This document shows, in pieces, positions 19,980 to 60,826 of a DNA stretch of 64,000 nucleotides. The notes under the pieces are model-generated. The model saw only the letters and a list, made by a program, of their open reading frames with translations. It was not told the origin of the DNA and made no database searches. Origin of the DNA: Desertimonas flava (lineage in GTDB: Bacteria > Actinomycetota > Acidimicrobiia > Acidimicrobiales > Ilumatobacteraceae); assembly GCF_003426815.1 (NCBI RefSeq), contig NZ_QKYK01000014.1, positions 62,001 to 126,000 on the forward strand. The letters are read 5' to 3'. The translations under genes and the position numbers were made by a program. The number at the start of each line of letters is the position of its first letter. The first letter of the stretch is position 1.

Positions 19980-19980
19980 G

Positions 19981-23794: not shown

Positions 23795-23824
23795 TCGTCT
23801 TGTTTTCCCCGTGGAAGGGATCTG

Positions 23825-25027: not shown

Positions 25028-25402
25028 TCAGCGGCGACCGATGTCGAACTCGTTGCCCTCGGGATCGGCCATCACGATCCACGAGATCTCCCCGAGGCTC
25101 CCGCTGCCGCGCCGCTCGGCGCCCAGTCCGACCAGCCGCGCGGCCTCGGCGTCGGGGTCGTCGACGTGCAGGTCGACGTGCATGCGGTTCTTGGCGACCT
25201 TGGGTTCGGACACGCCCTGCACGAGGAACATCGGCCCGGGGCGACCGTCAGCCGGGAGCAGGATCTCGTACTGCTCGACCGAGTCGGCGCGGCGGTACCC
25301 GAGCGCCGCGGCCCAGAAGTCGGCGAGCAGGTCCGTGTCGACCGCGTCGATGACGAAGAGGAGGTCGGGCGGCGACGGCGAGGCGTCGGCTGGTTCACTC
25401 AT
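25028..25402 (-). CDS. VOC (glyoxalase/bleomycin resistance fold) family protein
   Basis: 124 residues with the VOC pattern: LLFVIDAVDTDLLADFWAAALGY, MHVDLHVDDPDAEAARLVGLGAE and MADPEGNEFDIGRR, including the His and Glu usually used for metal. ATG 25402 is supported by a TANNNT box 6 nt upstream. Substrate unknown. It is in line with the OYE gene upstream (20 nt gap). Confidence 0.88.
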   Translation of the reverse strand: MSEPADASPSPPDLLFVIDAVDTDLLADFWAAALGYRRADSVEQYEILLPADGRPGPMFLVQGVSEPKVAKNRMHVDLHVDDPDAEAARLVGLGAERRGSGSLGEISWIVMADPEGNEFDIGRR

Positions 25403-25408
25403 TCCCGC

Positions 25409-25414
25409 AATGTA
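25409..25414 (-). promoter_or_regulatory. -10 element of a probable leaderless VOC transcript
   Basis: On the minus strand TACATT lies exactly 6 nt before ATG 25402. No Shine-Dalgarno sequence is present. It lies within the end of the OYE gene's flank. Confidence 0.4.
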
Positions 25415-25422
25415 CGTGGCGG

Positions 25423-26535
25423 TCACCAGTAGTGGTGCTCGTGCTCCTTGCGGTAGTCGACGACGTCGGCGGTGCGCCCCGTCGCGACGAGGCGGACCCA
25501 CTCGGGGTTGCCGAGCAGGGCTCGGCCGACGGCGGCCAGATCGAACTCACCGTCGGCGTGACGGGCTGCCAGCGCGGCGATCGAGTGTGCCTCCTGGGGG
25601 GAGACCATGCGGCTCGCCGACTGGCTGAGACCGACAGAGCCGACGGTGATGGAGGGACGGCCGGTGATGCGCTTGGCCCAGCCGGCGAGGTTGAGTGGCG
25701 AGCCGTCGAAGGCGGGATCCCAGAAGCGGCGTTGCGACGCGTGGAACATGTCGGCGCCGGCATCGACCAGTGGCCCCAACACCTCGGCCAACTCGTCGGG
25801 CGTGTCGGCCAGGCGAGCCTCGAAGGCGCGCTCTTTGAACTGCGAGAAGCGGACGACGACGGGGAATGTCGGGCCCGTCGCCGCCCGCACCGCGGCGACG
25901 ATGTCGGCGACGATCCGTGCGCGGTTGCGCCGGCTGCCGCCGTAGCGGTCGGTGCGCCGGTTCGTCGCAGCCCACAGGAACTCGTCGAGCAGGTAGCCGT
26001 GGGCCGCGTGGACCTCGACGCCGTCGAACCCGACGCGGTGAGCGGCGCGGGCGGCGTCGGCGTACGCCCCGATCAGCACGTCGACCTCGGCGGTGGTCAC
26101 CGCGTGTGAGTTGGGACGTCCGTGCTCGTCGATGCCCGACGGGGTCCACGCAGGATGCCCGTCCGGCGAGTCCCGCTGGCTTCCCATGTGCCACAGCTGC
26201 GCCACGATCGACGACCCCTCGGCGTGGACGGCGTCGACCACATGGTGCCAGCCCGCTGCCGCCTCGTCGGTCAGGCGCGGGACGTCCGGGTCGTGACCGG
26301 CGCTCGGGTGATCGACGAGGATCCCTTCGGTCACGATCAGCCCCACGCCTCCGGCCGCGCGGCGGCGGTAGTACGCCGAGTTTTTGGCCGTCGGGATCCC
26401 ATCCGGCGAGTGGCTGCGAGTCATCGGCGCCATCACGAAGGCGTTGCGGAGGGTCAGCCCGGCCACGGAGATCGGGGCGAACAGGCGGGCGGCCGACGGG
26501 TCGGTCGCCGTCGCGTCGGTTGCGAGTGCGGTCAT
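25423..26535 (-). CDS. Old yellow enzyme family NADH:flavin oxidoreductase
   Basis: A 370-residue TIM-barrel flavoenzyme that reduces activated C=C bonds. It shows VMAPMTRSHS near the N-terminus, AQLWHMGSQ, and the family signature DGVEVHAAHGYLLDEFLWAATNRRTDRYGG (in parts). The FMN phosphate region near SVGLSQ and RALLGNPEWV is present. It is divergent from a MerR gene, with a MerR-type promoter between them, so an electrophile or redox-stress response is likely. Confidence 0.93.
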   Translation of the reverse strand: MTALATDATATDPSAARLFAPISVAGLTLRNAFVMAPMTRSHSPDGIPTAKNSAYYRRRAAGGVGLIVTEGILVDHPSAGHDPDVPRLTDEAAAGWHHVVDAVHAEGSSIVAQLWHMGSQRDSPDGHPAWTPSGIDEHGRPNSHAVTTAEVDVLIGAYADAARAAHRVGFDGVEVHAAHGYLLDEFLWAATNRRTDRYGGSRRNRARIVADIVAAVRAATGPTFPVVVRFSQFKERAFEARLADTPDELAEVLGPLVDAGADMFHASQRRFWDPAFDGSPLNLAGWAKRITGRPSITVGSVGLSQSASRMVSPQEAHSIAALAARHADGEFDLAAVGRALLGNPEWVRLVATGRTADVVDYRKEHEHHYW

Positions 26536-26541
26536 AGAGGT

Positions 26542-26573
26542 ACGCTAAACCCTTACATTGACGTCAAGGTCAA
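26542..26573 (-). promoter_or_regulatory. MerR-type promoter/operator of the OYE gene
   Basis: Minus strand: -35 TTGACC (26568-26573) and -10 TAGCGT (26542-26547) are 20 bp apart, the long spacing that MerR regulators correct by twisting DNA. The perfect palindrome TTGACGTCAA fills 26558-26567, and cctt/aagg arms flank it. The -10 lies 6 nt before the OYE ATG, so the mRNA would be leaderless. Confidence 0.55.
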
Positions 26574-26605
26574 GGGTCTGTGACGGACGGCATGGAGGAC
26601 GCTCG

Positions 26606-26947
26606 ATGAGGATCGGTGAACTGGCGGCGGCGACGGGAGCGAGCGCCTGCGCCCTGCGGTACTACGAGGAGCAGAGCCTGCTGGCCAGCGAGCGCAGCCC
26701 GAGCGGTCAGCGGCACTACCCCCACTCCGCCGTCGAGCGGGTCGAGTTGATCAGGTGCCTGCTCGATGCCGGGCTGTCGAGCGCGACGATCGCCGACGTC
26801 CTGCCGTGCATCGCCGACGACACGATCCGAACGCCGTGGCTGGAACAGCGACTCGGCGAGGAGCTGCAGCGCGTCGATGAGCAACTGGCGTCACTGAAGC
26901 GGACCCGACGCCTGCTGTCGGAGGTGGTCGCCCGCTACCGGGTCTGA
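26606..26947 (+). CDS. MerR family transcriptional regulator
   Basis: 113 residues. The winged helix MRIGELAAATGASACALRYYEEQSLLASERSPSG (shown in parts) with QRHYPHSAVERVELIRCLLDAG is followed by a dimerisation coiled coil (EELQRVDEQLASLKRTRRLL). A GGAGGAC ribosome-binding site precedes ATG 26606. There are no metal-type Cys motifs. The divergent OYE gene with its stretched promoter is the obvious target. Confidence 0.92.
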   Translation: MRIGELAAATGASACALRYYEEQSLLASERSPSGQRHYPHSAVERVELIRCLLDAGLSSATIADVLPCIADDTIRTPWLEQRLGEELQRVDEQLASLKRTRRLLSEVVARYRV

Positions 26948-27067
26948 CGGCTGTCAGGTGTCGACGGCTGCTCGCTCGAACGAACCGAGGCGCTCACCGT
27001 CGCGTGTACTCTCGGCACCGACCATCGGCGACCGACGGGGCCGTCGACGTTGCGGAACGGGGTGAGG

Positions 27068-27925
27068 ATGACGGCCATCGGCTGGGCGAGCGCTCGTGCT
27101 CGCCTGTTCAACGGGCGGAGCGGAGCGGGCGTGCTCATGGCGCTGGCGGCTGTGGCGCCGATCGCCGCGCCGACGTCCGCTGGCACCCCAGCGGTCGCGG
27201 AGCCGGACAGCATCGTCGTGACGTCGTCGCTCAATCCGGCGAACGAGGGGGATGCGATCACGTTCACGGCGGTCGTCACGTGGAACGGCGAGATCCAGGA
27301 ACAGGGCTGGCTGCCGTTCCTCGCCGACGGCGTGTTGCTCGGGACGGTCGCGATGAGCGGCGACGTGAACTCGTTCACCACCAGCGCACTTCCGCCGGGC
27401 ACCCACCAGATCACGACGAACTGGTCGCTCTCACCGAGCAACTTCATGCTCTCCAGCGCACCTCTGGAGCAGGTCGTGATCGCCCGCCCGGTCCCGAGCA
27501 CGACATCGACCACGACGTCCACCACCATGCTGCCGACCACGACCCACCCACCCAGCCCGGCTCCCACGGCGACGGGCATGACGTCGTCGCCGAATCCGTC
27601 GGTGCTGGGGCAGCCCGTCACCTTCGTCGTCACCGTCGCCGGAGCGGACGCCGCGCCGGCCGGTCTCCGGGGCCACCACGCCGCCGCACAGCCCTCAGTC
27701 GATGGCGGCACGGTGACGATCGCCGATGCCGGCGCGGTCCTGGCCACCGTCCCGGTCGTCTCCGGCCGGGCGGTGTTCACCACGTCGGCGCTGTCGGCCG
27801 GCGTGCACACCATCACGGCCGACTTCAGCGGCACGGCCACGGCGGCGCCGAGCAGCTTCGCCCTCCGTCAGCAGGTCGACCGACCGGCCGCTCCCACGCC
27901 ACCGACGTTGCCGGCCACTCGGTGA
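27068..27925 (+). CDS. Secreted protein with two bacterial Ig-like domains
   Basis: 285 residues. After a signal segment (VLMALAAVAPIAAPTSA) two Ig-like repeats follow. Each opens with a VTSSLNPANEGDAITFTAVV or MTSSPNPSVLGQPVTFVVTV type strand and closes with TTSALxxGxHTIT. A Thr/Ser/Pro hinge lies between them. The last residues are PTLPATR, resembling an LPxTG sorting site that ends without a membrane anchor. ATG 27068 is preferred over TTG 27050. Confidence 0.75.
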   Translation: MTAIGWASARARLFNGRSGAGVLMALAAVAPIAAPTSAGTPAVAEPDSIVVTSSLNPANEGDAITFTAVVTWNGEIQEQGWLPFLADGVLLGTVAMSGDVNSFTTSALPPGTHQITTNWSLSPSNFMLSSAPLEQVVIARPVPSTTSTTTSTTMLPTTTHPPSPAPTATGMTSSPNPSVLGQPVTFVVTVAGADAAPAGLRGHHAAAQPSVDGGTVTIADAGAVLATVPVVSGRAVFTTSALSAGVHTITADFSGTATAAPSSFALRQQVDRPAAPTPPTLPATR

Positions 27926-27949
27926 GCGCCGGCGGCCCGAGGCGAGGCC

Positions 27950-28849
27950 TCAAGCGTCGTCGACGGAGAGGTCCTTGGTCGCCTTGGCGATGTCGCTCTG
28001 GTACTTGAGCAGGATGTGGAGCGTGTCCTTGGCCACCTGGGCGTCGATGGCGTCGAGGTTGAGCAGCAGCAGTGTGCGGGCCCAGTCGAGGGTCTCGGAG
28101 ACGCTCGGCGACTTCTTGAGATCCATCTGGCGGATCGACCGCACGACGCGGGCGATCTGATCGGCGAGGTTCTCGGTGACACCGGGAACCTTGGCCAGCA
28201 CGATCTCGCGCTCGCGCTCGAGTGTCGGGTAGTCGACGTGCAGGTAGAGGCAACGCCGCTTGAGCGCCTCGGACAGCTCCCGCGTGTTGTTGGAGGTGAG
28301 GAACACGAGAGGGATCTGCTTGGCGGTGATCGTGCCCAGCTCAGGGATCGACACCTGGTAGTCGGACAGGATCTCGAGCAACAGCGCCTCGGTCTCGACC
28401 TCGACGCGGTCGACCTCGTCGATCAGCAGCACGACCGGGTCGGGCGCCGAGATCGCCTCGAGCAACGGGCGGGTGAGCAGGAACTCGTCGGAGAAGATGT
28501 CGTCGGACACCTCGGCCCAGCTGGTGTCGGCCTCACCAGCGCCGGCCTTGTTGTCGGACTGGATGCGCAGCAGCTGCTTCTTGTAGTTCCACTCGTACAG
28601 CGCCTTGGACTCGTCGAGGCCCTCGTAGCACTGCAGCCGGATCAGGCGAGCGCCGAGCATCTCGGCCACCGACTTGGCGAGCTGGGTCTTGCCCGTACCG
28701 GCCGGTCCCTCCACCAGGATCGGCTTGCCGAGGCGGTCGGCAAGGAACACCACGCCGGCGATGCCGTCGTCAGCGAGGTAATTGACGTCCTTCAGCCCGT
28801 CGCGAACCTGGGGGACGCTCTCGAAGCGGGCAGTCGTTTCAGCGGTCAC
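27950..28849 (-). CDS. MoxR-family AAA+ ATPase (CoxD-like)
   Basis: 299 residues from GTG 28849. Walker A GPAGTGKT is at residues 48-55 and Walker B LLIDEVDR at 141-148, with sensor 1 LTSNNTREL and the arginine region LKRRCLYLHVDYP. The family acts as a chaperone-like motor with CoxE-type vWA proteins. The only fitting partner is at 18507-19979 on the same strand, across an accessory block. Confidence 0.93.
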   Translation of the reverse strand: MTAETTARFESVPQVRDGLKDVNYLADDGIAGVVFLADRLGKPILVEGPAGTGKTQLAKSVAEMLGARLIRLQCYEGLDESKALYEWNYKKQLLRIQSDNKAGAGEADTSWAEVSDDIFSDEFLLTRPLLEAISAPDPVVLLIDEVDRVEVETEALLLEILSDYQVSIPELGTITAKQIPLVFLTSNNTRELSEALKRRCLYLHVDYPTLEREREIVLAKVPGVTENLADQIARVVRSIRQMDLKKSPSVSETLDWARTLLLLNLDAIDAQVAKDTLHILLKYQSDIAKATKDLSVDDA

Positions 28850-29809: not shown

Positions 29810-31264
29810 ATGACGCGGTGCAACTACGCTCCCGCCGTGGCTGGAGCACTGGCGAAGTACGTCGACGCCTTCGTCGACGGGGTGAGCGCCGACCTGTCGG
29901 AACTGTCGGGCAGGGACCACCGAGCCGACGTGGTCGTCGAGGCGAGCGATCTGGTGGGCGCCGTCATCGACAGCGACGGTCGCCACTCGGGCGCCGAGCT
30001 CGAGGCCTGGCTCGACGACATCGGCCCCCGCCTCCAGCCGGCGGTGCTGGTGTCGTCCGTGCAGCTCAGGGAGTCGCAGCTGCTGGTCGGCAAGGCTCGC
30101 TGGCTCGAGCGTCCGAGCACGCTGTTCGGACTCCTGCTCGACGCCGACGCCAGGGACGCCGGCCGACGCGCCGTGCGCTACTACGAGCTGGGGATCCGCC
30201 TCTGCCACGCCGCGGCGTCGGTCGACCTCGTGCCCTCACCCGACGAGGTGGCGGCGATCGACCGGTACCGCGGCGTCCTGCTCGGCGCGTTCGACCGCGC
30301 CGGCCTGCCCCGGCCCGGCGTGTCGAACCGCGGGGGCGAGCCGCCCCGGCCGCCCTCCGGAGTCCGACCGCAGCAACCCGGAGATCCAGTCGTCGCCACC
30401 GCCACGGACGGAGCACCCGCCGCGCAACCGGTCGAGCTGCCGCCGGCACGCCCGATCGAGGACCTCCTCGCCGAGCTCGATGCCCTCGTCGGCCTGGCGA
30501 CGGTCAAGACGCAGGTGCGGCGGTTGACGTCGTTGCTCCGCATCCAGGCCCTGCGCGTCGAGCGGGGGCTGCCGACGCTCGAGACGAGCCACCACCTGGT
30601 GTTCACCGGCAACCCCGGCACCGGGAAGACGACCGTCGCCCGCCTGCTCAGCCAGATCCTCCGCACGCTCGGCCTGGTGTCGCACGGACATCTCGTGGAG
30701 ACCGACCGCTCTCACCTAGTCGCCGGCTACGTGGGTCAGACTGCCGCCAGGACACGTGGCGTGATGGAGTCGGCGTTGGGCGGCACGCTCCTCGTGGACG
30801 AGGCCTACGCCCTCGCCCGCGGCGGCGAGAACGACTTCGGGCGCGAGGCGATCGACACGATCGTCAAGTTCATGGAGGACCATCGCGACGACCTCGCCGT
30901 GATCGCCGCCGGCTATCCGGCCGAGATGGCCGCGCTGATCGACGCCAATCCCGGCCTCAAGAGCCGCTTCACGCGCACGATCGAGTTCCCCGACTACACC
31001 ACCGACGAGTTGGTCGCCATCTTCGAGGGGATGAGCGACGCCACCCGCTACCACCTCGACGACGCCGGCCGCGAGGCGCTGCGCACGGTGATCGACGCCG
31101 AACCGCGCGGGCGCGGCTTCGGCAACGCTCGCTTCGTGCGCAACCTCTTCGAGGAGGCGGTCGGCCGCCAAGCCGAACGGCTCGCCGCGGTGGAGCATCC
31201 CACCGAGGACGAGCTGACGACGCTCACCGCAAACGATCTTCTCGGGGCCGAATCGCCGGACTGA
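29810..31264 (+). CDS. CbxX/CfxQ-type AAA+ ATPase with helical N-terminal domain
   Basis: 484 residues. Residues 1-160 are helical with an acidic motif (LVGAVIDSDGRHSGAELEAW) like TerB-type domains, which is a weak inference. A Pro-rich linker follows. The AAA core has Walker A GNPGTGKT at 267-274, Walker B LLVDEAY at 327-333, and GYVGQTAARTRGVMESALGG and NPGLKSRFTRTIEFPDY typical of CbxX/SpoVK. ATG 29810 is chosen; GTG 29837 is an alternative. Clients unknown. Confidence 0.88.
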   Translation: MTRCNYAPAVAGALAKYVDAFVDGVSADLSELSGRDHRADVVVEASDLVGAVIDSDGRHSGAELEAWLDDIGPRLQPAVLVSSVQLRESQLLVGKARWLERPSTLFGLLLDADARDAGRRAVRYYELGIRLCHAAASVDLVPSPDEVAAIDRYRGVLLGAFDRAGLPRPGVSNRGGEPPRPPSGVRPQQPGDPVVATATDGAPAAQPVELPPARPIEDLLAELDALVGLATVKTQVRRLTSLLRIQALRVERGLPTLETSHHLVFTGNPGTGKTTVARLLSQILRTLGLVSHGHLVETDRSHLVAGYVGQTAARTRGVMESALGGTLLVDEAYALARGGENDFGREAIDTIVKFMEDHRDDLAVIAAGYPAEMAALIDANPGLKSRFTRTIEFPDYTTDELVAIFEGMSDATRYHLDDAGREALRTVIDAEPRGRGFGNARFVRNLFEEAVGRQAERLAAVEHPTEDELTTLTANDLLGAESPD

Positions 31265-49193: not shown

Positions 49194-50302
49194 ACGCCGA
49201 GTCGCTTGCCGCGCTCGTCGACGAGGTGGTCGCCGCATCCCCGCCGGGATCGACGCCGCCCGCCGGAGTCGCTGTCGGCGTGGCCACGAGAGACGGCGGC
49301 CCCTTGCGCATGGCGACGATCGGCTGGCGGGACGCCGACGCTTCCCTGCCGCTCACCGACACCACCCGTCACGATCTGGCGTCGGTGACCAAGGTGGTCA
49401 CCACGGCGTGCCTGATGACACTGGTCTCTGCCCGCGCCGTCGATCTCGACGACGAGGTGCAGCACTTCCTGCCCGCCGCCCACAGCGGCATCACCGTTCG
49501 CGACCTCCTGCTCCATCGGGGCGGGCTGTGGGAGTGGTACCCGTTGTACGCGGCCGTCGACGACCCGACGGACGTCGATGCGGTCCATGCCTTCGTCGAT
49601 GCCCTGCCGGGCCGGTACCCGCGCGGCCAGGCCCGCCACTACTCGGACCTCGGGTTCATCCAGCTCGGCCGCATCGTCGCCGCGGCGGCCGGCTCGTCGC
49701 TGCCCGACGCCGTCGCCGAGCTGATCGCCTTCCCGCTCGGTCTCCGGTCGTTGCGGTACGGCAGCCCGGACGACGCCGACGACGTGGCGACCAGCGCCCT
49801 CGACGATCGTGTCGAGATGACGATGCTCGACACCGGCGAGCCGTACGCGGTGCCGTTCCGCAGCTCCGACTTCGCCGGCTGGCGCACCGCGCCGGTGACG
49901 GGCTCCGTCAACGACGGCAACGCCTTCCATGCCCTCGGCGGCGTGTCGGGACACGCCGGTCTCTTCGCCACCGTCGACGACCTTGCCACGCTGGGCGCCG
50001 CCCTCGCCGCAGCCGGCGAGCACGACGACCTCTGGGCGCCGCCCGTGGTTGCCGAGTTCTACCGGCCCGGCCCGGACACCGGCCAGTCGCTCGGCTTCCG
50101 TCGGTACTCCGTTCCCGACGTCGACACCGATGTCCTCGGCCACACCGGCTTCGTCGGCACGGGCATCGGGTTCGTGCCCGACGCGGGCATCGCGGCGGTG
50201 CTGGCGAGCAACCGGTTGGTCACGTCCGGCACCCCGGTCTCCTCGGTCGACCTGTGGCACGCCGTACTGAACCAGACGCTGCACGGAGACGGCGATGGCT
50301 GA
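49190..50302 (+). CDS. Serine hydrolase of the beta-lactamase/DD-peptidase family
   Basis: 370 residues. The SxxK motif is S65-V-T-K68 and the second motif is Y151-S-D153. A C-terminal HTGFVGTGIGF segment stands where the KTG-type motif lies. No signal peptide is seen, so it would act in the cytosol, perhaps on imported muropeptides or related esters and amides. It overlaps both neighbours, confirming operon membership. Confidence 0.88.
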   Translation: MNAESLAALVDEVVAASPPGSTPPAGVAVGVATRDGGPLRMATIGWRDADASLPLTDTTRHDLASVTKVVTTACLMTLVSARAVDLDDEVQHFLPAAHSGITVRDLLLHRGGLWEWYPLYAAVDDPTDVDAVHAFVDALPGRYPRGQARHYSDLGFIQLGRIVAAAAGSSLPDAVAELIAFPLGLRSLRYGSPDDADDVATSALDDRVEMTMLDTGEPYAVPFRSSDFAGWRTAPVTGSVNDGNAFHALGGVSGHAGLFATVDDLATLGAALAAAGEHDDLWAPPVVAEFYRPGPDTGQSLGFRRYSVPDVDTDVLGHTGFVGTGIGFVPDAGIAAVLASNRLVTSGTPVSSVDLWHAVLNQTLHGDGDG

Positions 50303-51938
50303 CCCCGTGCTCAGCATCCGCAACCTGTCGGTCACGTTCAGCACCCCGTCGGGGCCGATCGACGCCGTGCGCGACGTGTCGATCGACATCGCTGCGAGCC
50401 AGACCGTCGCCGTCGTCGGGGCGTCCGGCTCCGGAAAGTCCACGACCGCGGCGGCCGTCAACCGGCTCCTGCCACCGAACGCCCGCATCACCTCGGGGTC
50501 GGTGTGGTTCAACGGCACCGATCTGGCCACCGTGCCGGCCCGCCAGATGCAGCGCATCCGCGGCGCGCAGATCGGTCTCGTGCCGCAGGATCCGATGTCG
50601 AATCTCAACCCGATGATGCGGGTCGGCAACCAGGTGGCCGAAGCCCTCGAGGTGCACGGCATCGCCGCCGGCACGGCAGCCCACGCCCGGGTCGTCGAGC
50701 TGCTCGATCTCGTCGGCATCCCCGACGCCGCCCAGCGAGCCAACCAGTACCCCCACGAGTTCTCCGGTGGCATGCGCCAGCGAGTGCTCATCGCCATCGG
50801 CCTCGCGTGCCGGCCCCAACTCCTCATCGCCGACGAACCGACCTCGGCGCTCGACGTGACCGTGCAGCGGCGGATCCTCGACCAGCTGGCCGAGCTCACC
50901 GAAAAGATGGGGACCGCCCTGTTCCTGATCACCCACGACCTCGGGCTGGCGGCCGAACGAGCCGACCACGTGGTGGTGATGAACGAGGGCGCCGTCGTCG
51001 AGGCCGGCGAGGCCGCAGCGATCCTCGGCGATCCCCAGCACGAGTACACCCGCCGCCTCCTCGCCGCCGCACCGAGCCTGTCGTCGGCCTCGATGCTGCC
51101 GGATCCGTCGCCCGGCGAGGCGCCCGACGGCCGATCACCGGATGATGAGGCGCCGCTGGTCACCGTCGACGGTCTCGTCAAGACGTTCCCCATCCGAGGC
51201 CGGGGCCTCGACGCCCCCACCGACTTCACGGCCGTGGACGACGTGGCGATCACGATCCCACGTGGGTCGACCGTGTCGATCGTCGGTGAGTCGGGCTCGG
51301 GCAAATCGACGATGGCCAACCTCGTCCTCGCCCTCGACCACGCGACCGCCGGGTCGATCACGTTCGACGGCGCCGACGTCACGGCGATGGACCGCCGGGG
51401 CCTGTTCGCCCTGCGGCGGCGGGTGCAGCCCGTGTTCCAGAACCCCTTCGCCTCGCTCGACCCCCGCTACACGGTGGAGCGGTGCATCGCCGAGCCGTTG
51501 CGCGTGCACAAGATCGGGACCAAGACGGGCCGGCGCGCCGCCGTGGCCGATCTGCTCGAGCAGGTCGCCCTGCCGGCCGGCCTCGCCGGGCGGTTCCCCC
51601 ACGAGCTGTCGGGCGGGCAGCGCCAGCGGGTCGCCATCGCCCGGGCGCTCGCCCTCGAGCCCGAGCTCATCGTCCTCGACGAGGCCGTGTCGGCGCTCGA
51701 CGTCCTCGTCCAGGCGCAGATCCTCGCCCTGCTCACGGAGCTGCAGCAGGAGCGCCGGCTCAGCTATCTGTTCATCAGCCACGACCTGGCCGTCGTGCGG
51801 ATGATCTCGCACCACGTGTACGTGATGCAGCGCGGACGCATCGTCGAGCACGGCACGCCGGCGGCCATCTTCGACGATCCTCAGCACGACTACACCCGCG
51901 AACTGCTCGCCGCCATCCCCACCCCCGCCCACCGCTGA
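50295..51938 (+). CDS. Fused DppD-DppF type ABC ATPase
   Basis: 547 residues with two complete ATPase domains. Domain 1 has Walker [10 protein letters not shown] (42-50), signature FSGGMRQR and ADEPTSALD. Domain 2 has Walker [10 protein letters not shown] (331-339), signature LSGGQRQR and [10 protein letters not shown]-terminal [11 protein letters not shown] follows each half, as in oligopeptide transporters. It energises the DppB/DppC-like permeases of this locus and ends the operon. Confidence 0.95.
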
Positions 51939-52569: not shown

Positions 52570-53292
52570 ATGGGACTCCGCGACCGATTCTTCACTCCCA
52601 AGACGGCGAAAGCCCTGCTGTCGTGGCGGATTCCGGTGGCGGCCGCGGTCGGCGTCGTCCTCGGGCTGATCGGTGTTCCGTGGGTCGGCGCGATCGTGAT
52701 CGGCGTGGCCTTCTACGCCGGATCGGTGCTGCTGGCGATGCCCAAGCAGAAGCGGGCGACTCCCGTCGACGCCTTCGCCCTCAGCGAGCCGTGGCGGCAG
52801 TTCGTGCAGAGCGCGAACCGGTCGCGCCAGGCGCTGCAGGCCACCGTGCGGGGGATCGCCGACGGGCCGCTGAAGGAGCGCCTCGGTGACATCGTCGCCC
52901 GTCTCGAGCAGGCCGTCGACGAGAGCGGCGCCGTCGCCACACGTGGCGACGCCATCGACGACGCCGTGAACCGCATCGACCCCGTGCGCCTCCGCTCCCG
53001 CCTGGCCACCCTCAGGGAGCAGGCGGGTGCCGAGTCGGGCAACGTGGCCGAGGCCATCGCCTCGGTCGAGAGCCAGCTCGCCAGCGCCGACCGCCTCAAG
53101 GCGCTCTCGGCCAGCACCGCCGACCGCCTCCGGCTCACCCAGGCCCGGCTCGACGAGCTCGTCGCCCGCGCCGCCGAGGTGAGCGTCGGCACCAAGGACA
53201 GCGCCACCTACGCCCACGACGTCGACTCGCTCGTCGTCGAGCTCGAGGCCATGCGCCAGGCCGTCGCCGAGGTGGAGCAAGCTTCGTCGTGA
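52570..53292 (+). CDS. Membrane protein A of the SBP-vWA cassette (paralogue of the gene at 56414)
   Basis: 240 residues. The N-terminal motif LRDRFFTPKTAKALL is followed by two adjacent membrane segments (about 20-60). A helical, coiled-coil-prone cytosolic part then includes SEPWRQFVQSANRSRQALQ, ADGPLKERLGDIVARLEQAV and LDELVARAAEVSVGTKDSA. The same blocks recur in order in the protein at 56414-57166. I do not recognise the family; the layout recalls XpaC-like proteins, but that is a guess. It is coupled to the next gene by GTGA. Confidence 0.75.
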   Translation: MGLRDRFFTPKTAKALLSWRIPVAAAVGVVLGLIGVPWVGAIVIGVAFYAGSVLLAMPKQKRATPVDAFALSEPWRQFVQSANRSRQALQATVRGIADGPLKERLGDIVARLEQAVDESGAVATRGDAIDDAVNRIDPVRLRSRLATLREQAGAESGNVAEAIASVESQLASADRLKALSASTADRLRLTQARLDELVARAAEVSVGTKDSATYAHDVDSLVVELEAMRQAVAEVEQASS

Positions 53293-54476
53293 ACGGCAAA
53301 CGCGCCGCCGCCGCGCTCGTGGCCGTGGCGCTCGTCGTCGTCGCCTTCGTCGTGCGCGGGGCGCTCGACGACGACGGGTCACAGGCAGCGCCGACCACCA
53401 CCGTCGCCGCCACCCCCGACGGATCCGGTCCGATCGGCACCGACGCCACGACGCCGGCCGAGCCGGAGGCGACCGAACCGCCGACGGCATCGAGCGTCGT
53501 CTGCATCACCGAGTTGGCGAGCGTGTGCGAAGCGATCGGCGACGCCTTCCCCGACCTGAACGTTCGGGTCGAGGCGGCTGGGACGACGCTCGACCGTCTC
53601 GCCGCTCTCGACGATCCAGCGGCGGCACCGATCTGGGTGACCGCCGACCCGTACCCGGCGATGGTCGACACCGCCCGGCGCGACGCCGACCCGATCGGCT
53701 ACTCCGGCACGCCGGTCGGTGCGTCGGCCCTGGCGGTGGCCGTGCCCAAGCCGCGCGCCGCAGCCACGGCGCCGGCGACCGCGGCAGGGACGAGCGTCAC
53801 CCCCGACACCGCAGCCGACGACACAGCAGCCGACGACACAGCAGCCGACGACACGGGCACGGAGGCCGGTGCGCCCACGGGCCGGGCCGACGTCCTGGCG
53901 AGCGGCTGTGCCGACGACGCGCTGTGGGCCTGCCTCGGCAACCACGCCGGGGCGGCGTGGACCGATCTCGGCGGCGAGGCGTCGTGGGGCGCGATCCGCC
54001 CGTCACTCGGTGACGTGCCCGATTCCGCCCTCGGGTTGCTGTCGTTCGCCGCCGCCGTCTCCGGGTACACCGGCGTCGCGTCCCCGACCGCGTTCGACTG
54101 GGAATCCGACAGCACGTTCGTCGGCTGGGCGCGCCGCCTCGTCCGCCAGAGTGAGCGGGCTCCCGACACGGCTGGAACGCCGCTCCGCACCATGGCGACC
54201 AGGGCGAGCGCCCTCGACGTGGCCGCCACGGCCGACTTCGAGCTCGCCGCCCTCGGCACCTCCGGCGACCGATTCGAGCTGGTCTATCCTCGGCCGGACA
54301 TGTGGTTGCACGCCGTGGTCGCCGCTCCGGCCGGTGTGGCCGCGCCCGCCGACCTCGCGGCGATCGTCACCGACGCGCTGACCGCCGCCGACTGGAAGCC
54401 GGCCGCGGCGGCGACGACCCCGGCGCCCAGCGCCGCCACGATGCTCGCACTCCGCGCCCTTTGGGAGGCCCAATGA
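53289..54476 (+). CDS. Exported SBP-like protein of the cassette
   Basis: 395 residues from GTG 53289. An N-terminal signal anchor (AAALVAVALVVVAFVV) is followed by a Thr/Pro/Glu linker. A solute-binding-like domain follows (ITELASVCEAIGDAFPDLNVRVE in parts, APIWVTADPYPAMVDTARR). An internal tandem of three TAADD units (53807-53853) sits between its halves. No vWA domain. It overlaps both neighbours by 4 nt. Function unknown; a partner of the vWA protein that follows is likely. Confidence 0.7.
   Translation: MNGKRAAAALVAVALVVVAFVVRGALDDDGSQAAPTTTVAATPDGSGPIGTDATTPAEPEATEPPTASSVVCITELASVCEAIGDAFPDLNVRVEAAGTTLDRLAALDDPAAAPIWVTADPYPAMVDTARRDADPIGYSGTPVGASALAVAVPKPRAAATAPATAAGTSVTPDTAADDTAADDTAADDTGTEAGAPTGRADVLASGCADDALWACLGNHAGAAWTDLGGEASWGAIRPSLGDVPDSALGLLSFAAAVSGYTGVASPTAFDWESDSTFVGWARRLVRQSERAPDTAGTPLRTMATRASALDVAATADFELAALGTSGDRFELVYPRPDMWLHAVVAAPAGVAAPADLAAIVTDALTAADWKPAAAATTPAPSAATMLALRALWEAQ
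53807..53853 (+). repeat. 15 bp tandem repeat coding for TAADD
   Basis: Three consecutive copies of acacagcagccgacg within the SBP-like gene. Changes in copy number keep the frame and would alter the length of a flexible linker. Confidence 0.7.
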
Positions 54477-56266
54477 ACCCCACCGCCCGTCGTGCCCTCG
54501 CCGCCGCCGGCCTGCTCGCGGTCGGCGCCGTCGCCGCCGCCCACTCCCCCGCCGGCGCCCGCGCCCCACAGGGTGACGGGTGCATCGTCGTCGACATGGC
54601 GGTGAGCAGCGAGAAGATCACCCTCCTCACCGAACTGGCCGAGGAGTTCAACGACTCTGGCGCCGAGGTCAACGGCGACTGCATCGTGATCGCCCCGCGA
54701 AGCGTCGCGTCGGGCCTCGCCGCGTCGCTGATCCCCGAGGGCTGGCCCGACCCTGACGTCAACGGCGAGCCACCGGTGATCTGGTCGCCGGCGGCGTCGG
54801 GCTGGGGCGCGATCGTCAACGAGCGAGCCGGCGAGGAGCTCGCCCCGGCCGGCACACCGTTCATGCTCACGCCGCTCGTCATCGCCATGCCCGAACCGAT
54901 GGCCGACGCACTCGGCTACCCGGAAACGCCGATCGGGTTCGCCGACCTCGTCGCCCTGGCCCAGAATCCTGAGGGCTGGGGAGCGTTCGGCCACCCCGAG
55001 TGGGGCCCGTTCCGCCTCGGCAAGACGAACCCCAACTACTCGACGAGCGGGCTCAACTTCACCGTCGCCGAGTACTACGCGGCCACGAACACGACGACCG
55101 GACTGAGCACCGAGGACATCGGGAGCCCCGAGGCCGTGGCGTTCGCCACCGACATCGAGTCGGCCGTCGTCCACTACGGCGACATCACGATGACGTTCCT
55201 CAACAACTGGTTCGCCGCCGACCGTCGGGGCACGGCGCTCACCTACGTCAGCGCCGTCGCCGTCGAGGAGAAGAGCGTCATCGACTACAACCTCGGCGAC
55301 CCCGACGGCGTGCTCGCCCCGGGCGAGGAGCTGCGCCCGCCGCGCATCCCGCTCGTGGCGATCTACCCGTCCGAGGGCACGCTCTACTCCGACAGCCCCT
55401 TCATCGTGCTCGACACGGAGTGGGTGGACGACGCCGAGCGTGACGCCGCGGCGATGTTCGAGGAGTTCGTGCAGCGCCCGGAGAACCAGGCGAAGGTCCT
55501 CGAGTACGGATTCCGCCCGAACAACCCCGACGTCCCCTTGGCCGATCCGATCTCGCTGGAGAACGGCGTCGACCCCGACCAGCCGACCGCCGAGCTCGAC
55601 GTGCCCGACCCCGCCGTGCTCGTCGAGATCCTCGACTCGTGGGCCGCTCTCCGCAAGGAGGCCCGCGTCATGCTGCTGCTCGACGTGTCCGGCTCGATGG
55701 GCGACCCCGCCGGACCCGACGGCGAGACGAAGCTCGACCTCGCCGTCGCCGCCGCGCTCGGCGCGCTCGACGACTTCAAGGACACCGACCAGGTGGGCCT
55801 GTCGGTGTTCAGCACCGACCTCGGTGGCGACGACCCCAACTTCCGTGAGGTCGTCCCGATCGGCCCGATGAGCGAGACCCGCGAGCAGATCGCCGATGCC
55901 CTGCAGCAGCAGTTCCCGGTGGCCGGCACACCCCTCTACAACGCCACACAGACGGCGTACGAGACCATGCTCGAGACCTACGACCCGGCGCAGATCAACG
56001 CCGTCGTCGTGCTGAGCGACGGCCAGAACGACGACGAGAACCCGGACGACGACGATGCCGAGTTCCAGGAGCTGATCGCCGCGCTCGAGGAAGGCAGCGA
56101 GGGCAGCCAGTCCCGGCCGGTCCGCGTGTTCACGATCTCGTACGGCGAGGGCGCCGACACCCAGGCCCTGCGCACGATCAGCCAGGCCACCAACGCGGCC
56201 ACCTACAACTCGAGCAACCCGGCGAGCATCAACCAGGTCTTCACAGCAGTCATCTCGAACTTCTAA
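54473..56266 (+). CDS. Secreted SBP-vWA fusion protein
   Basis: 597 residues. After a signal peptide (ALAAAGLLAVGAVAAAHSPAGA) comes an extracellular solute-binding domain (about 35-370: VVDMAVSSEKITLLTELAEEF, WSPAASGWGAIVNE, GEGTLYSDSP-like region). A vWA domain follows with MIDAS DVSGS at 404-408 (VMLLLDVSGSMGDPAG) and VVVLSDGQNDDE. The pairing is found in actinobacterial envelope-stress (Ter/TelA) neighbourhoods, though no TelA or TerD is here. It may sense a ligand and recruit partners in the envelope. Confidence 0.88.
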   Translation: MNPTARRALAAAGLLAVGAVAAAHSPAGARAPQGDGCIVVDMAVSSEKITLLTELAEEFNDSGAEVNGDCIVIAPRSVASGLAASLIPEGWPDPDVNGEPPVIWSPAASGWGAIVNERAGEELAPAGTPFMLTPLVIAMPEPMADALGYPETPIGFADLVALAQNPEGWGAFGHPEWGPFRLGKTNPNYSTSGLNFTVAEYYAATNTTTGLSTEDIGSPEAVAFATDIESAVVHYGDITMTFLNNWFAADRRGTALTYVSAVAVEEKSVIDYNLGDPDGVLAPGEELRPPRIPLVAIYPSEGTLYSDSPFIVLDTEWVDDAERDAAAMFEEFVQRPENQAKVLEYGFRPNNPDVPLADPISLENGVDPDQPTAELDVPDPAVLVEILDSWAALRKEARVMLLLDVSGSMGDPAGPDGETKLDLAVAAALGALDDFKDTDQVGLSVFSTDLGGDDPNFREVVPIGPMSETREQIADALQQQFPVAGTPLYNATQTAYETMLETYDPAQINAVVVLSDGQNDDENPDDDDAEFQELIAALEEGSEGSQSRPVRVFTISYGEGADTQALRTISQATNAATYNSSNPASINQVFTAVISNF

Positions 56267-56283
56267 TGAAGCGTTCCCCACAG

Positions 56284-56400
56284 GCGTGTCGCCGAGGCTC
56301 AGTGGCCACGCAGGCCGGCGCGCCGGCACCCTCCGCTAGCGCTCCGGGCACCTACCCGATCGGACCTCGGGACGCTCGCTGGCGCTCGCTGATCTCCGGA
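56284..56400 (-). repeat. Dispersed repeat R1, copy 5 (inverted)
   Basis: The reverse complement reads atcagcgagcgccagcgagc, gtcccgaggtccgatcgggt, ggagcgctagcgga, gccggcgcgccggcc, tgcgtggcc and tgagcctcggcg, the R1 order. It fills the gap between the SBP-vWA gene and the second membrane paralogue. Confidence 0.75.
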
Positions 56401-56413
56401 CAGGCCACATCAC

Positions 56414-57166
56414 GTGTCTAGATCGTTCAGGGATCGGTTCTTCACGCCCAAGGTGGCGGAGGCGATGATGTCCCCGCTCGGCATCGTGCTCGCCGGAGCC
56501 GGGATGGCCGCCGGTGTCGTCGCCGGGGCTCCGATCGCCCTCGCCGCCGGCATCGGCGCGCTCGCCTGGGGTGGACGGGTCGCCGCCGCCATCCCGCGCG
56601 ACAGCACCGAACGTGTGCAGCCCGAGCGCCTCAGCGAGCCATGGCGCGGCTACGCCCAGGGGGCCCAGAACGCCAAACAGCGGTTCGACCAGGTGGTCGC
56701 CGACGTTTCGCCCGGTCCGTTGCGGGACCGCCTGCTCCGGCTCTCGGCACGTCTCGACGACGGCATCGGCGAGTCGTGGCGCATCGCGAGACGGGGCCAC
56801 GACATCGTCGCCGCGATCGGCAAGATCGACACGCAGTCGGCGGCCGCCGAGCTCCACGAGCTGCGGCGATCGGGGGCCGTGGACACGCCGGCGGGCGCCC
56901 AGACGGCGAAGGCCCTCGAGGCACAGCTGGCGTCGGCCGAGCGCCTCGTCGCCCTCGCCGACCGCAGCCGCGACCGGCTCCGCCTGCTCGACGCCCGCTT
57001 CGACGAGCTGATCGCCCGTACGGTCGAGGTGAGCGTCGGCACCGGCGACTCGGCCGGGCTCGGCGAGGACGTCGACGAACTCGTCAACGAGCTCGAGTCG
57101 CTGCGCGTCGCGATGGAGGAGACGGCCCAGGCGGGTGGCGAGAGCACCCCGGCCGCCGGAGTCTGA
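56414..57166 (+). CDS. Membrane protein B of the SBP-vWA cassette (paralogue of the gene at 52570)
   Basis: 250 residues from GTG 56414. It shares with protein A the opening FRDRFFTPKVAEAMM, two hydrophobic segments (about 22-58), LSEPWRGYAQGAQNAKQRF, SPGPLRDRLLRLSARLDDGI and FDELIARTVEVSVGTGDSA. The end is Glu/Gly-rich. Its stop overlaps the murJ ATG by one base, tying the cassette to lipid II export. Family not recognised. Confidence 0.75.
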   Translation: MSRSFRDRFFTPKVAEAMMSPLGIVLAGAGMAAGVVAGAPIALAAGIGALAWGGRVAAAIPRDSTERVQPERLSEPWRGYAQGAQNAKQRFDQVVADVSPGPLRDRLLRLSARLDDGIGESWRIARRGHDIVAAIGKIDTQSAAAELHELRRSGAVDTPAGAQTAKALEAQLASAERLVALADRSRDRLRLLDARFDELIARTVEVSVGTGDSAGLGEDVDELVNELESLRVAMEETAQAGGESTPAAGV

Positions 57167-59052
57167 TGACACACGCCGGCGACGAGCGCTCGGCCCCGCA
57201 TCGCCGGAATCGATCGGAGGGCTTCGACGGAGGCGACCCGCTGAAGACGGGGATCGTCGATCGCACCGAGCTCGATGCCCTGCTCGCCGCTCCGTCGCTG
57301 GAGCCGATGTCGGGCGCCGACAGTACCGCTGGCGTCGATCTGGAGCGGTCGGCGCTCGCTCGTCTCGAGGACCTCGGCGACTCCCTCGAATGGCGGCGTG
57401 AGCGAGCGGCCCGGCGCGCGCCCCGAGCGGGTCGCGCCAAGGGCGTCGCGCCCGCCCGGCCCACCGCGGGCGGCGGCATGCTGCGCAACAACCTCGTCGT
57501 CGCGTCGGGAACGATGCTGTCGCGCATCACCGGGCTGCTGCGAGTGGTCGCGCTGACCGCCGTGCTCGGATCGGGGGCCCTCACCGACGCGTACCTGATC
57601 GGCAACGAGACGCCGAACATCGTCTACGAGCTGCTGATCGGCGGCGTCCTGGCGGCCACGCTCGTGCCGCTGTTCACGTCGTACCTCCGCGAGGACTCCA
57701 AGGAGTCCGAGGAGGCGACCAACGTCGTGATCACGGCGACGTTGATGGCGCTGACCGCACTGACGCTCATCGCCGTGCTCGCCGCGCCCTTGATCTTCCG
57801 GCTCTACACGCTGAACGTCGAGGAGGGTGTCGATCCCGACCTCCTTCGCCACGTCGGAACCGACCTCACCCGGATCTTCCTCCTGCAGATCTTCTTCTAC
57901 GGAGTGAGCGGGCTGCTCAGTGCCTACCTCAACGCCCGGCGGCAGTTCTTCGCCGCAGCCTGGGCCCCGATCGTGTCGAACCTGATCATCATCGGCACGC
58001 TGCTGACGATCCCCAGCGGTGGCCACGACCTCGCCGAGGTGGTCACCGACCGTCGCCTGCGCCTCACGCTCTCGCTCGGGACCACCGTCGGCATCGCCGC
58101 CATGGCCGGCGTCCTGGTGGTCGTCGCCGCGCGATCGGGTCTGCGCTTCCGGCCGACGTTCCAGCCCCACCACCCGGCGCTCAAGCGACTCCGTTCGCTG
58201 TCGGCGTGGACGCTCGGCTACGTGATCTCCAACCAGGTCGTCGTGGCCTTCGTCCGCAACCTCGCCGACCCGGGATCGGGCGACGCCACGGCGTACCTCC
58301 AGGCTTACACGTTCTTCGTCCTCCCCCACGGCCTGCTCGCCGTCTCGATCGCCACGACGTTCGAACCCGACATGGCCCGCGCCGTCAGCGCCAAGGACCG
58401 CAACGCGTTCAACAGCCAGGCGTCGCTGGGCATCCGGCTCGTCGCCCTTTTGACGATCCCCGCCAGCGTGGCGATGTTCGTGCTCCGCCGACCGATCATC
58501 GGCCTCGTCCTCCAGCGTGGCGAGCTCAGCGACGCGGCCGCGCTCAACGCGTCGCGGGCCCTCGGCGGGTTCGCGCTCGGGCTGGCCGGCTTCTCGGTCT
58601 ACCTGTTCACGCTCCGCGGCTTCTACGCCCACAAGGACACGCGCACGGCGTTCATCATCAACGCCGGCCAGTGCCTGATGAACGTGGTATTCGCCATCCT
58701 TTTCGTCCGCTGGTGGGGCGTGCTCGGCCTCGGCGCCGCCCTCGCCCTCTCCTACCTCCTCGCCGCGCTGTGGGCCCTCCAGGTGCTCACGTACAAGGTG
58801 CGCGAGTTCCCCCTGCGGGCGACGCTGCAGAGCATCGGGCGGATGGCCGTCGCCGGCGCCCTGGGCGGCGAGGCCGCCTGGTTCGTCGCCCGCCACGTCG
58901 GGTCGAACACCGGGATGGAGGCTGTCGCCCGCATGCTCGCCGGCAGCGTGGTGGGCCTCGCCGTCTACGTCGGCGTGCTCTCCGTGCAGGGAGCGCCAGA
59001 GCTGAACTCGGTGAAGCGGGTCATCGACCGCCGCCGCGGCGCCGCCGCCTGA
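57166..59052 (+). CDS. murJ: Lipid II flippase MurJ (MviN family)
   Basis: 628 residues. About 100 soluble residues precede the MurJ core, which opens with LRNNLVVASGTMLSRITGLLRV and has about 14 membrane segments. Other family segments are LIGNETPNIVYELLIGGVLAATLVPLF (in parts), YLNARRQFFAAAWAPIVSN, ATAYLQAYTFFVLPHGLLAVSI and LRGFYAHKDTRTAF. It moves lipid II across the membrane for peptidoglycan synthesis. The N-terminal extension is Arg/Glu-rich, with no membrane segment. It starts one base inside the upstream stop. Confidence 0.93.
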   Translation: MTHAGDERSAPHRRNRSEGFDGGDPLKTGIVDRTELDALLAAPSLEPMSGADSTAGVDLERSALARLEDLGDSLEWRRERAARRAPRAGRAKGVAPARPTAGGGMLRNNLVVASGTMLSRITGLLRVVALTAVLGSGALTDAYLIGNETPNIVYELLIGGVLAATLVPLFTSYLREDSKESEEATNVVITATLMALTALTLIAVLAAPLIFRLYTLNVEEGVDPDLLRHVGTDLTRIFLLQIFFYGVSGLLSAYLNARRQFFAAAWAPIVSNLIIIGTLLTIPSGGHDLAEVVTDRRLRLTLSLGTTVGIAAMAGVLVVVAARSGLRFRPTFQPHHPALKRLRSLSAWTLGYVISNQVVVAFVRNLADPGSGDATAYLQAYTFFVLPHGLLAVSIATTFEPDMARAVSAKDRNAFNSQASLGIRLVALLTIPASVAMFVLRRPIIGLVLQRGELSDAAALNASRALGGFALGLAGFSVYLFTLRGFYAHKDTRTAFIINAGQCLMNVVFAILFVRWWGVLGLGAALALSYLLAALWALQVLTYKVREFPLRATLQSIGRMAVAGALGGEAAWFVARHVGSNTGMEAVARMLAGSVVGLAVYVGVLSVQGAPELNSVKRVIDRRRGAAA

Positions 59053-59121: not shown

Positions 59122-59922
59122 ATGAGTTCGTACGACGACTTCCTCGCGCTCCACGTCAAGGGCCGCCCCCTCCTCCTCGCCAACGCGTGGGACGTCGGCA
59201 CGGCCAAGGCCTTCGCCTTCCTCGGCTACCAGGCCATCGCCACCACCAGCGCCGGGCACGCCGCCGTGCTCGGCCGCCTGGACGGGGCCGTCACCCGGGA
59301 CCAGGCGATCGCCCACGCCGCCGAGCTGTCGGCGGCCACCCCACTCCCCGTCAACGCCGACCTCGAGAACTGCTTCGCCGACGACCCGGCCGGTGTCGCC
59401 GAGACGATCCGCCTGGCCACCGCCGCCGGCATCGCCGGAGGGTCCGTCGAGGACTACAACCCCACCGAGCAGGCGATCTACGACCTCGGGCTGGCCACCG
59501 AGCGGGTCGCCGCGGCCGCCGATGCGGCCCATTCCGGCCCCGACAAGTTCGTGCTCACGGCGAGGGCCGAGAACCACATCCGCGGTGTCACCGACCTCGG
59601 CGACACGATCGCCCGCCTGCAGGCGTACCAGGAGGCCGGCGCCGACGTGCTCTACGCGCCCGGCCTCACGTCGGCCGATGACATCGTCAGCGTCGTCAGC
59701 TCGGTGGACCGGCCGGTGAACGTGCTCGCCCTGCCCGGCGTGCCGCCGGTCGCCGAGCTCGCCGCGATCGGCGTCGGACGCATCTCGGTCGGCAGCGGGT
59801 TCTCGCTCGTCGCCTACGGCGCCGTCGCCACCGCCGCCAAGGAACTGCTGGAGGACGGCACGTACGGCTTCTGGGACACCGCCAAGGCCGCCGGCGCCGT
59901 GCGCGGCGCCTTCGACGAGTAG
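59122..59922 (+). CDS. Isocitrate lyase/PEP mutase superfamily protein
   Basis: 266 residues of a TIM-barrel C-C/P-C lyase: LLANAWDVGTAKAFAFLGYQAIATTSAG, LPVNADLENCFADDP, GIAGGSVEDYNP, VLTARAENHI and GVGRISVGSGF (in parts). Metal-binding Asp/Glu positions are present. The KKCGH motif of true isocitrate lyase is absent. The substrate may be an oxaloacetate- or phosphonopyruvate-like acid. Confidence 0.9.
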   Translation: MSSYDDFLALHVKGRPLLLANAWDVGTAKAFAFLGYQAIATTSAGHAAVLGRLDGAVTRDQAIAHAAELSAATPLPVNADLENCFADDPAGVAETIRLATAAGIAGGSVEDYNPTEQAIYDLGLATERVAAAADAAHSGPDKFVLTARAENHIRGVTDLGDTIARLQAYQEAGADVLYAPGLTSADDIVSVVSSVDRPVNVLALPGVPPVAELAAIGVGRISVGSGFSLVAYGAVATAAKELLEDGTYGFWDTAKAAGAVRGAFDE

Positions 59923-60013: not shown

Positions 60014-60826
60014 TCAGTTCGCTGATCCCTCGGCCGGCGTCTCCTCGGCAGCAGGTGCCTCCGTCGCCGGCGTCTCTTCGGCGGCCGGAGCGGTGGCTGC
60101 GCCGGACTCGAGGCCGAGCTCGGAGCGCAGCTGGCTGAGCCGGCTCTGAGCCTCGACGTTCGCCGTCGCCTGCTCCACCTCGAGCACGCGCGACTCGACC
60201 GACGTCTCGTTGAGCTCGGACGTCGCCTTGGCCTTGGCGTAACGGGCCTGGATCTTGTCCTCGACCTCCTTGAACGTGGGGACGTCCGCGCCGATGGTCT
60301 CGTTCAGCGAGGCCATCGCCGAGTTCATCTCCTCCTGCATCTTCGCCTGGTCGAGCTGCGACAGCAGCTTCGACTTCTCGGCGATCTTCTCCTGCAGGAT
60401 CCGCGAGTTCTGCGCGACCGCCGCCTTCGCCTGGTCGGAGGCCTGTGCCGACTCCAGCACCAACGACTTGAGGCTCTCGACGTCCTTTTCGACCTGGATC
60501 AGCTGGTTGGCGATCGTCTCGGCGGCCGTGTTGTACTGCGTCGCCTTGGCCGCGTCGCCGGCCTTCTCGGCGTCGGCCGCCATGATGAGGGCCTGGCGGG
60601 CGTTGGCGTTGAGCTTCTCGAGCTCCTCGAGCTTCTTGTTGAGGCGGATCTCGCTCTGCTTCTGGTTGGCGATGACGTTGGCTGCCTGCTCCTTGAGCCG
60701 GACGTGCTGCGACTGGGCCTCGCCGATCGCCTGCTCGAGCTGGATCTTGGGGTCAGCCTTCTCGTTGAACGACCCGGTGAGCTTGGCCGTCAGGTACTTC
60801 CACCACTTCCGGAAGAGCTTGAACAT
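60014..60826 (-). CDS. PspA/IM30 family membrane-associated protein
   Basis: 270 residues, almost wholly helical. Amphipathic MFKLFRKWWKYLTAKL is followed by coiled coils (DPKIQLEQAIGEAQSQHVRLKEQ in parts, LNKKLEELEKLNANARQALIMA). The C-terminal tail is Ala/Pro/Glu-rich and not part of the classic core. PspA proteins bind stressed membranes as oligomers. ATG 60826 is used; TAGCAT 8 nt upstream suggests a near-leaderless start. Confidence 0.92.
   Translation of the reverse strand: MFKLFRKWWKYLTAKLTGSFNEKADPKIQLEQAIGEAQSQHVRLKEQAANVIANQKQSEIRLNKKLEELEKLNANARQALIMAADAEKAGDAAKATQYNTAAETIANQLIQVEKDVESLKSLVLESAQASDQAKAAVAQNSRILQEKIAEKSKLLSQLDQAKMQEEMNSAMASLNETIGADVPTFKEVEDKIQARYAKAKATSELNETSVESRVLEVEQATANVEAQSRLSQLRSELGLESGAATAPAAEETPATEAPAAEETPAEGSAN

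Follow-up and report, generated by a model that had tools for sequence, protein, structure and literature searches.

Positions 52570-57166 of a 64,000-nucleotide stretch of the Desertimonas flava genome (contig NZ_QKYK01000014.1; the whole stretch is called the window from here on) hold four genes in a row. The outer two encode related membrane proteins, A and B, and between them lie the genes of an apparently exported solute-binding-like protein (SBP) and of a second such protein that carries a von Willebrand A domain (SBP-vWA). These four genes are probably the membrane and exported part of an envelope-stress module based on PspA. An earlier note, made from the window's sequence, had framed the four genes too narrowly: it did not list pspA and an AAA+ gene, which are members of the unit in relatives. 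Wider than that frame, the conserved unit reads CbbX/EccA-type AAA+ - SBP - SBP-vWA - B - (murJ) - PspA/IM30. It is a variant of the PspA envelope-stress systems, one for which I found no description in the main texts of the open-licence literature searched.

A scan with one genome per species gave 146 loci with relatives of SBP-vWA, of which 80 were kept (the named loci). They come from Acidimicrobiia, Ilumatobacteraceae, Microthrixaceae, Nitriliruptorales, Candidatus Microthrix parvicella, and Actinobacteria bacterium IMCC26207, with a more distant locus in a metagenome-assembled genome (MAG) of Nocardioidaceae. The IMCC26207 record, which is not labeled a MAG, contains AAA+, SBP, SBP-vWA, B, murJ, and PspA. 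Four named loci of lower GC that lacked a gene call for SBP-vWA (L158, L159, L170, and L211) were dropped, leaving 76 for the counts; in the first three of the four, tblastn places B after SBP-vWA, and L211 ends within SBP-vWA. B directly follows SBP-vWA in 61 of the 67 testable named loci (within four genes in 64), SBP lies at most two genes upstream of SBP-vWA in 59 of 70, and an AAA+ gene at most four genes upstream in 39 of 51. PspA is found downstream in 39 of 48, accompanied by murJ in 24 of these 39. The layout common at the level of the window's order is VWA_CoxE< MoxR< proA< AAA> SBP> SBP-vWA> B> (murJ>) PspA> proB< obg<, the arrowheads giving direction.

A bin of Ilumatobacteraceae (L137) has the compact form AAA> A> SBP> SBP-vWA> B> murJ> PspA>, its members identical to those of the window (tblastn) at 68% for AAA, 50% for A, 28% for SBP, 68% for SBP-vWA, 58% for B, 54% for murJ, and 82% for PspA. 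The gap from AAA to A is 123 nt there, as against 21 kb of other genes in the window, which is therefore best seen as the same unit broken up, with 21 kb lying between AAA and A and with pspA turned round. In three families (f89, f96, and f103), pspA directly follows B, without murJ, in all 10 loci with a strong B gene, 7 of which hold the full AAA-SBP-SBP-vWA-B-PspA, and no match to proA, proB, obg, or murJ lies within eight genes of B in these 10. The unit is therefore not just carried along by housekeeping neighbors. Of the strong B genes, 47 were mapped in all, and PspA follows 42 of them on the same strand, no more than eight genes away. Gene losses look nested: four loci (L040, L041, L044, and L046) keep AAA, B, and PspA and have lost SBP-vWA and SBP, and in six more (L042, L045, L047, L048, L049, and L063) B and PspA alone are left, murJ being present or not. 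Among more distant relatives, L115 and L125 have consecutive genes for SBP-vWA, a protein of the hairpin type, and PspA, and L117 has the first two but a gene other than pspA next. L115 carries two tandem SBP-vWA/B-like pairs ahead of PspA.

The presence of these genes was also counted over 148 genomes of the window's order, a set that overlaps the named loci and hence is not independent of them. B was found in 55 genomes, PspA in 115, and SBP-vWA in 32; one genome (G031) whose B match reached only E 3.3e-4 was excluded from the count of B. All 55 genomes with B have PspA, as do 60 of the 93 without B. Similarly, 31 of the 32 genomes with SBP-vWA have B (the exception is a contig-edge fragment), compared to 24 of the 116 without SBP-vWA. 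Fisher tests, which take no account of phylogeny, give p values of 1.9e-8 and 8e-16 for the two associations. In 50 of the 55 genomes with B, no more than 4.5 kb separates it from pspA, and in 49 the two share a strand. The earlier note had supposed envelope sensing or assembly, and it is sensing that this proximity favors, through a partner, PspA, that the note did not name. Among 394 genomes of the phylum, 23 have B-type matches and 24 have SBP-vWA at E <= 1e-60. Twenty loci from genomes having PspA without B were also mapped: pspA was confidently called in nine and missed by the gene caller in nine, and the matches in L218 and L235 were so weak (16 and 14 bits) as to be uninformative. Among the nine with a confident call, AAA adjoins PspA in L223, and L222 has AAA-murJ-PspA, both without B.

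The earlier note had linked the cassette to lipid II export through murJ, whose product exceeds the TIGR01695 cut-off. That link is weak: murJ is absent from 15 of the 39 PspA-linked named loci and from all 10 loci of f89, f96, and f103, and its absence from the 15 led me to discard it as the core of the system.

A and B, the flanking genes, are to judge from their alignment (42% identity over 237 positions, BLASTP E 3e-50) paralogues, as had been claimed, and neither a lack of relatedness between the two nor a scattering of the genes in relatives was found. In the alignment of 37 members of the B family, two hydrophobic stretches form a hairpin, which a conserved EPWR-like motif and a helical domain follow. 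AlphaFold2 models B (mean predicted local distance difference test, pLDDT, 86.3; predicted template modeling score 0.68) with a two-helix hairpin (21-36 and 41-59) and a helical domain (77-96, 102-137, 140-153, 159-207, and 213-242). The mean number of Lys/Arg residues in 37 proteins is 2.81 ahead of the hairpin, 0 within the loop, and 3.84 behind the hairpin, and by these counts both ends of B are predicted to be cytoplasmic. Among the matches listed from Pfam and NCBIfam, those of A and B are weak and mostly of coiled-coil type. A single-protein query with B found no relatives. Foldseek against PDB gave a best E of 0.085, with weak matches to BAR/F-BAR and other long-helix proteins, and VIA-align reached Z scores up to 11.7, under the tool's telling level for helical bundles, so I claim no fold for B.

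The order of the genes recurs in relatives, but complete and with A as well as B, as A-SBP-SBP-vWA-B, it was seen only in the window and L137, and L137 is the only one of the 76 counted named loci with two B-type genes. A tree of 51 proteins groups A with the single copies from three genomes of the same family at support of 100/100 and leaves B outside, in an uncertain position. I therefore take the arrangement as one of the family, and in view of the tree and the gene counts I rejected A/B as a heterodimer conserved in all relatives. Other members of the family would have lost B and the SBP genes. A 120-aa remnant of SBP between an A-type gene and murJ in one of these three same-family genomes (L114:9193-9555), a case of cassette decay, helps this view. 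A further A/B-like protein, the third, is divergent, 184 aa long, and encoded in another neighborhood of the D. flava genome (L023, G000:C37:26149-26655), and it matches the helical domain alone (query residues 61-238).

SBP-vWA matches both PF13531 (SBP_bac_11; 48.0 bits, cut-off 25) and PF00092 (47.6 bits, also above cut-off). Motifs of the metal ion-dependent adhesion site (MIDAS) type lie at residues 404 (DVSGSM), 485 (GTPLY), and 515 (SDG), and the strict set (DxSxS...T...D) is found in 65 of 88 distinct relatives; a lipobox-like motif is found in 69 of these 88. The SBP of the window matches no Pfam family at E <= 1. Of 18 members of its family, 5 match SBP_bac_11 (best 4.4e-6), and it is through its family only that this SBP may be assigned to that type. 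The family profile can be aligned with the solute-binding portion of SBP-vWA at a probability of 98.7 (E 4e-16), and by this comparison the two proteins are paralogues. Cysteines 72, 80, 207, and 215 are invariant across 18 aligned relatives of SBP. The export signals of both proteins were judged by eye. In one distant locus (L123:10772-11776), the gene after SBP-vWA encodes a protein of 334 aa that lacks Pfam matches at E <= 0.001 and that to the eye has a transmembrane segment and a helical tail; it is perhaps another type of partner.

The pspA product matches PF04012 at E 2.4e-31 (109.5 bits, cut-off 33.9). The AAA+ protein has an AAA domain and AAA_lid_6, with Walker A GNPGTGKT and Walker B LLVDE, and its PDB matches (CbbX, 194 bits; EccA1, 167 bits) mark it as of the CbbX/EccA type.

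The known protein that most invites comparison with B is PspM, the partner of PspA in the mycobacterial ClgR-PspA-PspM-PspN system. In both systems PspA stands beside a protein with two transmembrane helices and a helical domain of similar helix pattern (mycobacterial system as treated in the main text of PMC11237479). The gene of either protein adjoins pspA, and PspA was present in the fetched stretch of about 4 kb in all 20 further PspM loci mapped. The systems differ in that five short PspM loci that were mapped gave no match to AAA+, SBP, SBP-vWA, or murJ. A model of PspM (pLDDT 82.6, from 5 sequences) has a hairpin of helices 2-37 and 47-70, then helices 92-114, 120-153, 155-194, and 202-228, and the main helices of the two models are alike in order and approximate length. 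Profiles of 37 and 5 rows, respectively, align with probability 2.1 and E 0.023. Widened to 111 and 53 sequences, they give a local probability of 22-37% (E 9.6e-4 to 3.5e-4), a global one of 49%, and a score of 31.9-34.7. This score is above every control: the maximum was 22.8 over 30 comparisons against other families and 19.1 over 60 column shuffles, and reversed PspM gave 24.2. A pool of 2341 proteins was searched with both profiles: the widened B profile brings up one PspM (L066; E 0.0053, fourth outside its own set among the weak hits), and the PspM profile ranks a distant B-like protein, that of L117, first among non-PspM proteins (E 0.0052). These comparisons suggest that B and PspM may be remotely akin, and I do not accept the profile match as proof of it. 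The main text of PMC11237479 restricts PspM to mycobacteria and corynebacteria. In the order around G196, NF047839, the curated PspM model, has matches at E <= 1e-10 in 180 of 288 genomes (174 above its cut-off), spread over many families; together with L236-L283, this makes the range of PspM look wider than the one stated there.

The mechanism that I infer from the linkage, co-occurrence, topology, architecture, and domains observed would run as follows, the order of events being a guess. B (and A in this family) would anchor PspA, which is a filament protein of the ESCRT-III-like kind, to the inner side of the membrane, much as PspM may do for mycobacterial PspA. SBP and SBP-vWA would face outward and sense the condition of wall or membrane, the vWA MIDAS making a metal-dependent contact, and would pass a signal to the B/A hairpin. 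The CbbX/EccA-type protein may then remodel or release the complex of PspA and B, and murJ may be co-expressed where repair includes a supply of lipid II. A bolder form of this scheme I hold only tentatively, as a minority possibility: an ESCRT-III module in which PspA filaments assemble on the B/A hairpin and are disassembled in Vps4-like fashion by the ATPase, switched by SBP and SBP-vWA, with B in a PspM superfamily reaching far beyond mycobacteria. PspA shares a superfamily with the eukaryotic ESCRT-III proteins that remodel membranes, and the way in which it is anchored, informed of damage, and disassembled is poorly known beyond a few bacterial models. Candidates for the anchor, the ATPase, and the outside sensors stand side by side in the unit, so that reconstitution can test the question directly. 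Should B and PspM be kin, one type of partner would serve across much of Actinomycetota.

Several observations weigh against a PspA-based module with B as its anchor. Neither PspA nor murJ lies downstream in 8 of the 48 named loci, and in the window itself pspA is on the minus strand. B stands beside apparently unrelated genes in L036 and L200. Distant paralogues of SBP-vWA (L122, L123, and L126-L132; L124 was left out of this mapping) have no B or PspA alongside, and divergent B-like paralogues (L023, L050-L052, L054, L062, L116, and L118-L121) have no PspA alongside, so the linkage holds for the close families of B and SBP-vWA and not for every relative. The Fisher tests ignore shared ancestry, and 60 genomes of the order do with PspA and no B. 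The SBP-vWA of the window has no lipobox-like motif. As for PspM, its curated model (cut-off 80 bits) matches neither A nor B at E <= 1, so that by this model they are not members, and PspM is absent among the matches listed for 37 A/B proteins (25 of 47 families). The profile match (probability 2-49%) is not significant by usual standards, and L066 is the sole PspM that the B profile finds below E 0.1, the others not falling below E 0.5.

What other role might these genes play? They could be a system for cell-wall assembly or a chaperone system for an exported substrate, in which the AAA proteins (CbbX/EccA-type and MoxR) and vWA proteins aid secretion or insertion and PspA is a mere general guard of the membrane. 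After CbbX, the AAA+ protein has as its next relative in PDB EccA1, which belongs to ESX-1 secretion. Many loci of the order have MoxR and VWA_CoxE next to the unit in divergent orientation, and murJ is often within it. However, neither MoxR nor VWA_CoxE is found within eight genes of B in the 17 mapped loci outside the window's family, and B strictly tracks PspA; I regard this account as unlikely. Another account would grant the genes no common function, only an ancestral order around the proA/proB-obg locus, which the unit does adjoin, on one side or both, in many loci of the order. The three families that keep the unit away from those genes speak against it, as do the doubled pairs beside PspA in L115 and the nested pattern of presence, SBP-vWA implying B and B implying PspA, and it is decidedly improbable.

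Proteins of the SBP_bac_11 type usually serve importers, and the SBP pair might be the binding part of an ABC importer with its permease elsewhere, B being a coupling protein. An ABC transporter gene does lie just 5' of A in the window. It sits, however, in the 21 kb between AAA+ and A where L137 has only 123 nt, no further gene family recurs within the unit in the maps made, and a fusion to vWA is unusual for importers, all of which leave this account very improbable. Set against these accounts, the PspA-based module remains the reading I prefer.

Systems of TelA, Ter, and XpaC likewise combine a vWA domain with a helical membrane-hairpin protein, and the earlier note had looked to TelA or Ter for a connection. 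None emerged: TelA (PF05816) has no match in the D. flava genome (completeness 96.62%), XpaC (PF10112) matches in 2 of 119 genomes of the phylum, and neither A nor B has a match to either of these Pfam families at E <= 1. On these grounds I dropped the links to TelA/Ter and to XpaC.

In its main text, a 2024 survey of phage shock protein systems (PMC11237479) describes PspA in the company of PspM, of thioredoxin, and of AAA+ proteins, a double-AAA protein among them, as well as longer PspA operons that encode a protein binding solute and peptidoglycan (PBPB and OmpA). As in the ESCRT-III/Vps4 and PspA-AAA+ operons treated there, a protein of the PspA/Snf7 superfamily is joined here by an AAA+ gene. 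The AAA+ protein here differs in being of the CbbX/EccA type, with one AAA domain, rather than Vps4 or double-AAA, and the exported partners here differ in being SBP_bac_11 and SBP-vWA. The main text of that survey contains none of the terms vWA, MoxR, SBP, substrate-binding, MurJ, and von Willebrand, and a second survey (PMC9239133), searched by term, makes no mention of vWA, MoxR, PspM, or Acidimicrobiia.

The features of the window are collected in Table 1. The coupling of the genes is as the earlier note described it: overlaps of 4 nt for A/SBP, 4 nt for SBP/SBP-vWA, and 1 nt for B/murJ (TGATG), with a repeat filling the gap before B. The gene caller starts B at 56465, and the upstream start of the earlier note is favored because relatives open with the same RDRFFTP-like stretch. 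Past murJ come a PEP_mutase gene, PspA/IM30, proB, obg, and rpmA.

Table 1. Features of the window (coordinates of A, SBP, SBP-vWA, B, and murJ checked by translation).
Feature	Position	Strand	Length	Description
VWA_CoxE protein	18507-20084	-		Adjoins MoxR gene in relatives; looser association
MoxR-type AAA ATPase	27950-28849	-		Next to unit and divergent in many of the order's loci; looser association
CbbX/EccA-type AAA+ ATPase	29810-31264	+		AAA and AAA_lid_6; heads unit in many relatives, 21 kb off here
ABC transporter gene	50295-51938			Just 5' of A
A	52570-53292	+	240 aa	Two-transmembrane protein with helical domain; paralogue of B
SBP	53289-54476	+	395 aa	Solute-binding-like; N-terminal hydrophobic stretch (by eye)
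SBP-vWA	54473-56266	+	597 aa	Solute-binding domain and von Willebrand A domain with MIDAS-type motifs
Dispersed repeat	56267-56413	none	147 nt	Fills space from SBP-vWA to B
B	56414-57166	+	250 aa	Two-transmembrane, predicted cytoplasmic helical domain; proposed PspA anchor (PspM-like)
murJ	57166-59052	+	628 aa	Lipid II flippase family; frequent but optional neighbor
PEP_mutase gene	59122-59922			Between murJ and pspA
PspA/IM30	60014-60826	-		Inverted with respect to cassette

The gap between SBP-vWA and B is a dispersed GC-rich repeat with 54 matches in its own genome, itself counted, and several of the matches form clusters of neighboring copies (e.g., G000:C1:297148-297736). Folding of the gap as RNA is no better than that of shuffles (z 0.36). 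The distance from SBP-vWA to B in relatives, where the repeat itself was not searched for, is mostly less than about 100 nt.

Unit genes also appear in two MAGs with unexpected labels, Bifidobacterium breve (L154) and Acidobacteria (L148), which are possibly mislabeled or mixed bins. The MoxR-VWA_CoxE pairs are RavA-ViaA-like, and the window has the two corresponding genes, with a MoxR-type AAA and a VWA_CoxE domain. They are separate from the cassette, and beyond the window's order the maps made showed no such pairs next to B. The two genes stand about 8 kb apart in the window (18507-28849) and side by side in relatives, and their products are 84% (MoxR) and 83% (VWA_CoxE) identical in L137.

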